DNA from: Flavobacteriales bacterium | GTDB lineage: Bacteria; Bacteroidota; Bacteroidia; Flavobacteriales_D; Crocinitomicaceae | DNA: 64,000 nucleotides | NCBI GenBank assembly: GCA_947462255.1 | Contig: CANHOA010000006.1 | Span: forward strand, 62,001 to 126,000 | Reading direction: 5' to 3' | Part shown: positions 5,588 through 34,571 of the stretch, piece by piece | Layout of the letters: the number at the start of each line of letters is the position of its first letter | Position numbering within the stretch: the first letter of the stretch is position 1 | The notes under the pieces: generated by a model | Databases searched by the model: none | What the model was told of the DNA's origin: nothing | What the model saw: the letters and a program-made list of their open reading frames with translations, nothing else | Translations under genes and position numbers: made by a program

Positions 5588-5675
5588 GGAGAAATGGCAG
5601 AGCGGTCGATTGCGGCAGTCTTGAAAACTGTTGAACCGAGAGGTTCCTGGGGTTCGAATCCCTATTTCTCCGCCA
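5588..5675 (+). tRNA. tRNA-Ser (anticodon UGA), CCA encoded
   Basis: The 88-base sequence folds as a class II tRNA. The acceptor stem GGAGAAA pairs with TTTCTCC (5665-5671). The anticodon arm is GCAGT-CTTGAAA-ACTGT, giving anticodon TGA. The long variable arm is GAACC-GAGA-GGTTC, and the T-loop is TTCGAAT. The discriminator is G, followed by an encoded CCA (5673-5675). It has its own promoter upstream and a strong terminator downstream. UGA reads the UCN serine box (UCA, UCG, UCU). The repeat arrays that start about 60 bases downstream may use this locus as an insertion site. Confidence 0.96.
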
Positions 5676-5712: not shown

Positions 5713-5734
5713 GTTTCTAGAACGTCAAAAGCTT

Positions 5735-6006
5735 GCTTTTGTAAGTGAAGTAGAAACAAAAAAAGCCATTATCCGTTCCGCTGGGAGCGGATAAGCTTTA
5801 ATTAGTATTAAGCCTCCCCCACCTGGGATCACGCGTCCATTCAGACGCGTAATCCGAGCAAGCTTTTGTAAGTAAAGTAGAAACAAAAAAAGCAATTATC
5901 CGCTCCGCCGCGGATAAGCTTTAATTAGTATGAAGCTTCCCCCACCTGGGATCACGCGTCCATTCAGACGCGTAATCCGAGCAAGCTTTTGTAAGTGAAG
6001 CAGAAA
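5735..6006 (+). repeat. Tandem repeat of about 125 bp (two units plus a partial third) with hairpins
   Basis: Unit 1 begins at 5735 and unit 2 at 5862 (127 bases); a partial third begins at 5985 (123 bases on) and fades near 6006. Each full unit holds two inverted repeats. One is TTATCCG...CGGATAA, with a loop that differs between units. The other is ACGCGTC-CATTCA-GACGCGT. The two full units differ at a handful of positions, mostly in the first hairpin's loop. No open reading frame is maintained across units. The array lies between the tRNA-Ser terminator and a larger repeat family. Confidence 0.85.
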
Positions 6007-6031
6007 AATCCTCACCCTTAATCCCTCTCTC

Positions 6032-6066: not shown

Positions 6067-7001
6067 CCTTGCAAAAGCAGGTTTTGAAGCCCTATTGAAT
6101 TTGGCAAATGCTAAGACTAGCTAAAAGCTCAGTCGCTAGCATCCAAATTTGGTGGGGATTAAAAATACTTCGAATTAACTCATGCTTGATGACATTCACG
6201 ATCCGTCGAAGTAAAGCGTATTGTTAGGCTGGCTCCTTTTTTTGTTACTTTTTTTTGAGCTAAAAAAAAGTAAAGAGATACCTCTTTCTACTTTTTTTCC
6301 GCAAAAAAGTAGCAAAAAGCTCGGTGCTGTTTTTTGTATTCTACGTTTCACTTTTGAAAACCGACCAAATCGGCGCATCTCGACTTCGCTCGATGTGCCC
6401 TCTATAAGTGGATTGAGCATAGTCGAAATCCATGGTGCCCGGTTTTCAATGCGCTATTCTTGATTAAAAAAAAAGGCGCCATATTTAAAAAATAAATTTT
6501 TATAGGTATTAACATTCAAGCATCAACCTTGCAAAAGCAGGTTTTGAAGACCCGTTGAATTTGGCAAATGCTAAGATTAGCTGAAAGCTCAGTTGCTAGC
6601 ATCCAAATTTGGTGGGGATTAAAAATACTTCGAATTAACTCATGCTTGATAACATTCACGCTCCGTCGAAGTAAAGCGTATTGTTAGGCTGGCTCCTTTT
6701 TTTGTTACTTTTTTTTGAGCTAAAAAAAAGTAAAGAGATACCTCTTTCTACTTTTTTTTCGCAAAAAAGTAGCAAAAAGCTCGGTGCTGTTTTTTGTATT
6801 CTACGTTTCACTTTTGAAAACCGACCAAATCGGCGAGCTTTCAGCTTCCTTTTGGTGCCCGGTTTGCAATGCCCTATTCTTGATTAAAAAAAAAGGCACC
6901 ATATTTAAAATATAAATTTTTATAGGTATTAACATTCAAGCATCAACCTTGCAAAAGCAGGTTTTGAAGACCTATTGAATTTGGTAAATGCTAAGATTAG
7001 G
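6067..7001 (+). repeat. Tandem array of a 420-460-bp hairpin-rich repeat (two units plus a terminal partial)
   Basis: Unit 1 spans 6067-6526 and unit 2 spans 6527-6946; a third copy of only the first ~55 bases occupies 6947-7001. Unit 1 is 40 bases longer because it carries a different segment around 6374-6432. Each unit has a 12-bp perfect hairpin (TTAC plus eight T, loop GAGCT; 6245-6273 and 6705-6733) and a 10-bp hairpin (CTAC plus six T; 6288-6312 and 6748-6772). The loop of the second hairpin varies (TCCGC, TTCGC). A related copy lies in opposite orientation at 34041-34571. Short open frames through the units look accidental. Together with the 125-bp array this accounts for the gene-free stretch 5676-7028. 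Confidence 0.88.
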
Positions 7002-33958: not shown

Positions 33959-34040
33959 GATAATCCTTATTTTAAATCTATCTAAATAACATAATATTTT
34001 CCCTGAAATTATTACTATTTCAATTATAATATTGTTTACC

Positions 34041-34571
34041 CGACTGATCTTTCAGATAGTCTTAACATAAACCAAATTCAATGGGTTTTAAAAACCTCTT
34101 ATTGCAAGGCCTTAAATAGAACCTGATTATTTACGAAAGATGGATTTTTTACTCTTTAGTACAAGCGGGGGGCATTTTTTTTACTGGTGCATTTTTTTTT
34201 AATCAAGAGTAGCGCATTGAAACTCGGGCACCATGAGGAAGCTGTAAGCTCGCCGAGATGGTCGATTTTTCAAAAGTGGAACGTAGATTACAAAAACCGG
34301 CACCGAGCTTTTTGCTACTTTTTTGCGGAAAAAAAGTAGAGAGATAAAGTGATTTACTTTTTTTTAGCTCAAAAAAAAGTAACAAAAAAAGGAGCTGACT
34401 TTGCAATGCGCTTTACTTCTTCGAGCACGGATTCTTCTTATTCCTGAATTGGTTCGAAGTATTTTTAATCCCCACCAAATTTGGATGCTAGCGACTGATC
34501 TTTCAGATAGTCTTAACATAAACCAAATTCAATGGGTTTCAAAAACCTCTTTTTGCAAGGTCTTAAATAGA
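34041..34571 (-). repeat. Inverted dispersed copy of the 420-460-bp hairpin repeat, flanked by 80-bp direct repeats
   Basis: Read on the minus strand, 34571 to about 34198 follows the 6067-6946 units closely, including both hairpins: TTAC plus eight T at 34354-34382, and CTAC plus six T at 34315-34339. Block order is the same. About 80 bases that begin the unit (34492-34571) recur at 34041-34121 with few changes, so the unit is bounded by direct repeats 451 bases apart, as in the tandem array at 6-7 kb. The segment between them (about 34130-34197) holds poly-T runs. This fills most of the gene-free stretch 33934-34583 between porX and sufS. Confidence 0.85.

Follow-up and report, generated by a model that had tools for sequence, protein, structure and literature searches.

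A hairpin-rich tandem repeat of a Flavobacteriales genus with compensatory changes in its main fold and a MITE-like sister subfamily

The repeat array found next to a tRNA-Ser in the window, the 64,000-nucleotide stretch of DNA analysed here (genome G000), belongs to a family that is confined to one Flavobacteriales genus in the genomes sampled. The best evidence on its nature is the fold of a hairpin, H1, which is more telling than the two perfect T/A hairpins of each unit. We consider it probable that the repeat is an old, end-less copy of a MITE family that carries a folded single strand inside, most likely an RNA, with a fixed H1-H2-H3 shape.

A preliminary description of the window had reported two full units and a partial third from 6947, with both T/A hairpins perfect in each unit, and a further copy near 34.5 kb; all of these are present, the last reading from 34560 on the minus strand, with a partial start after it. 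The units and their parts are:

6067 to 6526, plus strand: first full unit, 460 bp, with leading edge, H1, H2, H3, H4, H5 and an A/T-rich spacer
6527 to 6946, plus strand: second full unit, 420 bp
6947 to 7000, plus strand: partial third unit, holding the 5' portion of the leading edge, with changes past about position 54
6089 to 6160, plus strand: hairpin H1 of unit 1, 81.1 bits by covariance model, with covariation
6549 to 6620, plus strand: hairpin H1 of unit 2, 78.1 bits by covariance model
6167 to 6212, plus strand: hairpin H2 of unit 1, stem ACTTCGA / TCGAAGT, from sequence and family folds
6627 to 6672, plus strand: hairpin H2 of unit 2, from sequence and family folds
6245 to 6273, plus strand: hairpin H3 of unit 1, perfect 12-bp T/A stem, with loop complementarity
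6705 to 6733, plus strand: hairpin H3 of unit 2, perfect 12-bp T/A stem
6288 to 6312, strand not given: hairpin H4 of unit 1, perfect 10-bp T/A stem, resembling an inverted H3
6748 to 6772, strand not given: hairpin H4 of unit 2, perfect 10-bp T/A stem
34110 to 34560, minus strand: third unit, flanked by a response-regulator/PglZ-like and a sufS-like gene (names by eye)
34467 to 34538, minus strand: hairpin H1 of the third unit, 80.6 bits by covariance model
34011 to 34087, minus strand: decayed but recognisable H1, in the partial copy that follows the third unit, 47.5 bits, E 7.6e-9
34211 to 34280, plus strand (opposite to the unit): weak match to H1 inside the third unit, in its H5 part, 31.3 bits, E 6.9e-5

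Units 1 and 2 are 97% identical over their first 300 bases (96.3% over the first 215), and the first 54 bases of the partial third unit are 94% identical to them. From its base to its tip, H1 of unit 1 is made up of an outer stem, a 5-bp stem, an internal loop, a 4-bp stem, a 1-nt bulge, a 4-bp stem and a triloop. The partial start that comes after the third unit (34109-34043, minus strand) had been taken for a simple truncation; the start is there, but its H1 is still recognised, in decayed form. Because H4 resembles an inverted H3 and the H5 part holds a weak H1 on the opposite strand, one unit may consist of two facing copies of one structured element. Directly 3' of the tRNA-Ser (5588-5675), at 5730-6031, there is also a second tandem hairpin repeat, with three partial copies spaced by 123-127 bp; modules like it are present, by eye, at loci L010, L016 and L038.

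At the gathering score, the tRNA was the sole Rfam 15 match in the whole window, and a search of seven loci against Rfam at up to E 1 likewise returned nothing on the element, in agreement with the preliminary description, whose author knew of no described family of this form. A literature search found no description of this repeat, which is not proof of its being unpublished. Blastn with unit 2 (E limit 1e-5) gave no match in 50,697 phage and 72,556 plasmid records, and two exact motifs of the repeat were absent from viral contigs; we rejected a phage or plasmid origin on these empty searches. A protein-coding role was also rejected, since the ORFs (about 6196-6887) are short, of 61-80 aa, occur on both strands and run across the hairpins.

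The preliminary description had proposed selection on structure and not on protein, and this was borne out by compensatory changes in H1. The stems differ among subfamilies A to D (defined below), yet the helices, the internal loop, the one-base bulge and the triloop are kept. Both sides of the pair changed in 11 of the 27 H1 pairs in alignment A1, in 22/27 in alignment A2 (41 further matches, 28 distinct) and in 21/27 in the mixed alignment A4, compared with 6-10 in controls with slid partners; A2 and A4 were fitted to the H1 model, so that their two-sided counts lean towards it. Two covariance models of H1 were used for searching, R1, built on 29 sequences (28 of subfamily A and one diverged), and R2, built from A4. 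Outside H1, the H3 loop is complementary to the sequence just upstream, over at least five letters in 40/64 hairpins, with means of 4.3-6.4 against 3.6-4.0 for shuffled sequences, H4 hairpins being mixed into the A and D counts; this may reflect a pseudoknot or a competing pairing. A closing helix between the leading edge and the stretch after H2 pairs in many A copies and, by eye, does not pair in those starting AGCATCAACC or AGTATCAACC, so we do not claim it. Some subfamily A copies (L020, L016, L033, L051) have small palindromes, e.g. TACCGAGGCGTCGGTA, inserted in the H3 stem.

Stems maintained in this manner might also belong to purely selfish DNA, whose hairpins act as DNA, in a cruciform or as single strand at replication, or are corrected by template switching, with no RNA function. 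In A2, Watson-Crick pairs fill 458 of the 468 inner-stem cells (the rest being 2 G-U, 2 A-C and 6 other), as a DNA process would give, and subfamily E has ends like those of DNA transposons. We nevertheless find this rather unlikely, because correction would erase the internal loop and the one-base bulge that are conserved in A to D, the hairpin of E is internal and away from the element ends, and G-U pairs are distributed asymmetrically between the strands. In folded alignments of the A to D cores, distinct G-U and A-C pair types were 41:9 on the plus strand and 15:18 on the reverse complement folded in the same way; when structures were predicted without G-U pairs the ratio was 15:5 (p 0.04). 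The plus strand also gave the more stable fold in all four subfamilies. The H1 alignments alone gave 13:4 for A1, 7:4 for A2 and 2:2 for the inner stems of A2. Subfamily E alone shows a weak bias (15:8 forward, 10:9 reverse), and pooling A to E yields 56:17 forward against 25:27 reverse (Fisher p 0.0012). As far as predicted structures go, the asymmetry favours the plus strand as the folded strand.

A search of related genomes by blastn and covariance model, as the preliminary description had suggested, revealed compensatory stem changes and placed the family, with R2, in 28 of the 86 genomes of the genus. A 23-base core with up to two mismatches is present in 11/86 of them (reversed control, 0/86), and a blastn search of 60 relatives with unit 2 gave hits in 11, the window's own genome contributing 14 matches. 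R1 at E 0.05 found matches in 24/86 genus genomes and, over the order, in 13/299 genomes, all from this genus out of 65; with R2, 2/395 genomes matched in a sample of the class, both from this genus out of 196. Named records that contain the core exactly are MAGs under the title Flavobacteriales bacterium or Flavobacteriia bacterium, together with a single Crocinitomicaceae bacterium and a record bearing the label Chryseobacterium gleum; by our reading of the isolate names, the carrier MAGs come from lakes. A strict T/A-hairpin pattern was discarded as too strict for estimating spread, since over 198 genomes of the phylum it hit one, missed G000, and its reversed control hit two. In another family of the class (G531), locus L149 contains at about 1500-2650 a three-unit tandem array of about 520-bp units, in which CAAAAAGCC comes after a GTTACTTTTTGTGGGCCAAAAAGTAAC-like hairpin; it resembles H4-H5 by eye, and R2 found no H1 in this array.

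The H1 matches fall into groups by their outer stem, namely A (GAATTTGG), to which the window's units belong, B (AAAACGAG), C (GAAATTGG) and D (GTCACACG). A fifth group, E, was added through R2; it looks related to C by eye, its H1 is nearly all A/T and its own consensus fold sets the loops slightly differently; G000 holds four E copies. A shared origin of A to E is suggested by the covariance model and by the order of the parts, and not by sequence similarity.

The view that the repeat is a non-autonomous element gained support from this sister subfamily, in which both transposon-like ends and target duplications occur. When complete, E-type elements end in imperfect inverted repeats beginning TTGAGTGTTCGCAATCGTACCAGTAAAATA (30 bases shown per end); those with H1 are MITE-like, about 360-420 bp long, and carry H1 inside the element, away from the ends. 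The end pattern, allowing three mismatches in 15 genomes, was found 42 times in G075, 23 in G009 and 10 in G000, against 0, 1 and 0 for the reversed control, although it did not exceed the control in every genome (1:2 in G101, 2:1 in G021). Among copies with enough flank, both ends were within four mismatches of a 22-base pattern in 11/20 E copies and in 1/5 C copies. Twenty distinct loci have both ends, 16 of 361-418 bp and four of 153-183 bp, and exact 8-10-bp target duplications flank ten of them (7/16 long, 3/4 short), compared with a mean of 0.48 and a maximum of 3 over the 20 loci when flanks were paired at random. Of the 16 long loci, 12 have an H1 match to R2 at E 1.4e-6 or better, two a weak one and two none, and the four short loci have none either; six of the 12 long loci with a clear H1 have an 8-10-bp duplication. 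In the window's own genome, the E copy L220 has its two ends and is flanked by an exact 8-bp duplication. Subfamily E has, therefore, the inverted ends and the target duplication by which MITEs are recognised. At another locus (L275, 264-1485), two inverted E-type ends surround a 155-aa ORF that is PIN-domain-like by eye.

An IS1595-type element with such ends was seen, in parts, in G094, with the whole IS on no contig. At contig ends of this genome, E-type ends enclose a transposase start with a zinc ribbon (PF12760; E 4e-5, 23.9 bits, just under the Pfam cut-off of 25.4) and also transposase C-termini matching PF12762 above cut-off. In a profile search of the 86 genus genomes, PF12762 matched in four, and not in G000. 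No E-type end within three mismatches accompanies the full-length IS1595-type transposases of G075 and G004, the G004 locus having one site with four mismatches, and no transposase was recognised by eye among the long ORFs adjoining ends in 50 loci (L237-L286). IS1595-type ends were absent from all A (0/35), B (0/10) and D (0/25) copies with enough flank and from the window, and inspection of subfamilies B and D by eye revealed no ends; movement by an IS1595 enzyme is thus unsupported for the window's own subfamily. A match to a known IS or MITE end had been named beforehand as one of the results that would speak against the preliminary description, and this was what we found for subfamily E, but not for subfamily A.

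The history of the window's copies was followed at both loci. The gap after the response-regulator/PglZ-like gene at 34 kb, compared in 30 of 78 matching genomes, is of 62-68 bp in the close relatives G088, G099, G080 and G006, and holds the unit in G000 and G105. It is the one locus at which an empty site is known for subfamily A, with borders too blurred to read a duplication. This pattern indicates either loss or repeated gain; it could be loss, since the more distant G021 and G100 seem, by eye, to keep decayed copies in the gap. The 34-kb copies of G000 and G105 are 99.1% identical, whereas unit 2 and the 34-kb copy, both from G000, are 79.1% identical, indicating that the copies are inherited. 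Intergenic gaps adjoining the same gene are occupied in different species (L118 and L136; the window copy at 34560 and L134; L119 and L197), these pairs including four copies against one and two cases of opposite orientation.

At the tRNA-Ser locus, the orthologue L048, taken as G080 by its matching coordinates, has one unit plus a partial, and G000 two units, which are 96.3% alike and 87.4% and 86.5% identical to the G080 copy. As judged from these identities, the G000 pair would stem from a duplication or conversion that happened recently, an outcome expected of unequal recombination between leading edges, and the earlier idea of growth by recombination at the leading edge is partly supported. 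The companion claim, that the array invariably closes with the beginning of another unit, is true of the two loci of the window and of the orthologues seen, but many single copies in relatives have no such start, by eye.

The leading edge had also been proposed as the means by which a cassette of this kind moves, and spread through it as a site-specific recombination cassette, similar to the attC sites of integrons, would account for units bounded by direct repeats and for the existence of solo leading edges (L011, L012). Besides, attC sites carry a conserved bulge in their hairpin, as H1 does. Nevertheless, the units have no convincing genes, only short ORFs, the partial edges end, by eye, at differing positions, and the clear ends, those of subfamily E, are inverted repeats with target duplications; the edge of about 55 bp itself spans the 5' half of H1. 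We hold such a cassette to be highly improbable, and movement by the edge did not stand.

Genomic context was analysed for 86 distinct copies (A 42, D 27, B 11 and C 6), taking as genes ORF calls of at least 100 aa. Copies of A, C and D point either way relative to their neighbours, and 13/27 D copies are antisense to both. Subfamily B has same-strand genes on both sides in 9/11 copies and upstream in the other two, whose downstream side lies beyond the contig, and all 11 distinct copies run in sense with polysaccharide gene clusters, where they sit between genes or at the start of the cluster; the cluster genes were identified with Pfam for nine proteins and by eye for the others. A NusG paralog (PF02357) precedes a B copy by 266-801 bp in G095, G085 and G102. 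Loci L183-L188 show a long, mostly same-strand polysaccharide cluster headed by a NusG paralog, with B elements in its gaps in G087 and G102. Other copies are near RNA genes (L009, L119 and L235; 5S rRNA-like by eye, SRP RNA and tRNA-like by eye, respectively).

The core could accordingly be viewed as a cis-acting RNA signal for elongation that is read by the NusG paralog, as in long polysaccharide operons, all other copies being strays. The orientation of the B copies and the position of the paralog in those three genomes are what this predicts, but the first copy lies about 3 kb after the paralog in G087 and about 47 kb after it in G002. Further, the paralog query matches 47/86 genus genomes, and H1 is within about 1.5 kb of it in only 3/30 fetched loci, so a general link to NusG is unsupported and limited to a few relatives; G000 itself has no match to the query, and the A, C and D copies lie in either orientation. 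We consider it quite unlikely that the core is such a signal. A broader and, in our view, rather unlikely proposal is that a MITE lineage carries and spreads H1-H2-H3 as a new structured RNA, which selection would have preserved through wide turnover of its stem sequence, and which subfamily B would have recruited as a signal in polysaccharide operons of genomes with a matching NusG paralog.

Under the reading that we favour, that of an old MITE copy with a folded strand inside, subfamily A would descend from an E-like transposable element, having lost its ends, and would now be passed on vertically, and its tandem units would arise through unequal homologous recombination between repeated leading edges. 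Less surely, frequent co-transcription of the element and its neighbours may be what maintains the fold, a correctly folding strand being tolerated or useful, possibly in processing, insulation or the control of elongation. MITEs are usually viewed as passive leftovers of insertion sequences, and this lineage appears to keep an internal fold by compensatory change; should the fold prove to be a functional RNA, this would be a case of a transposon disseminating a regulatory RNA that is ready for use. The covariance models from this work make the RNA reading testable in cultured relatives.

The main text of a 2024 review of prokaryotic MITEs contains no mention of IS1595 or of 'Bacteroid' (PMC10969869). 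Subfamily E shares general features of MITEs such as RUP (PMC3049150) and QMITE2 of Coxiella (PMC10969869), which are described as A/T-rich and intergenic, with inverted ends, short direct repeats (7-9 bp in QMITE2) and a stable fold when transcribed; unlike these, the window's subfamily A lacks ends, and a conserved internal loop and bulge lie inside the element. As in our family, palindromic repeats are dispersed between genes in the REP/RAYT systems, although the unit is larger here. Going by its description, a MITE with an internal minisatellite from Porphyromonas gingivalis (PMC4596501) also combines, in the Bacteroidota, a MITE with tandem repeats. Nearest in kind, again as described, are the BOX elements of Streptococcus pneumoniae, which are intergenic and modular, with variable tandem modules and predicted RNA stem-loops, and for which an IS with similar ends was proposed as the mover (PMC3049150). 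Like BOX, the repeat reported here is modular, tandem, structured and possibly moved by an IS, but it occurs in a different phylum and the covariation of its stems spans subfamilies whose stems differ widely.
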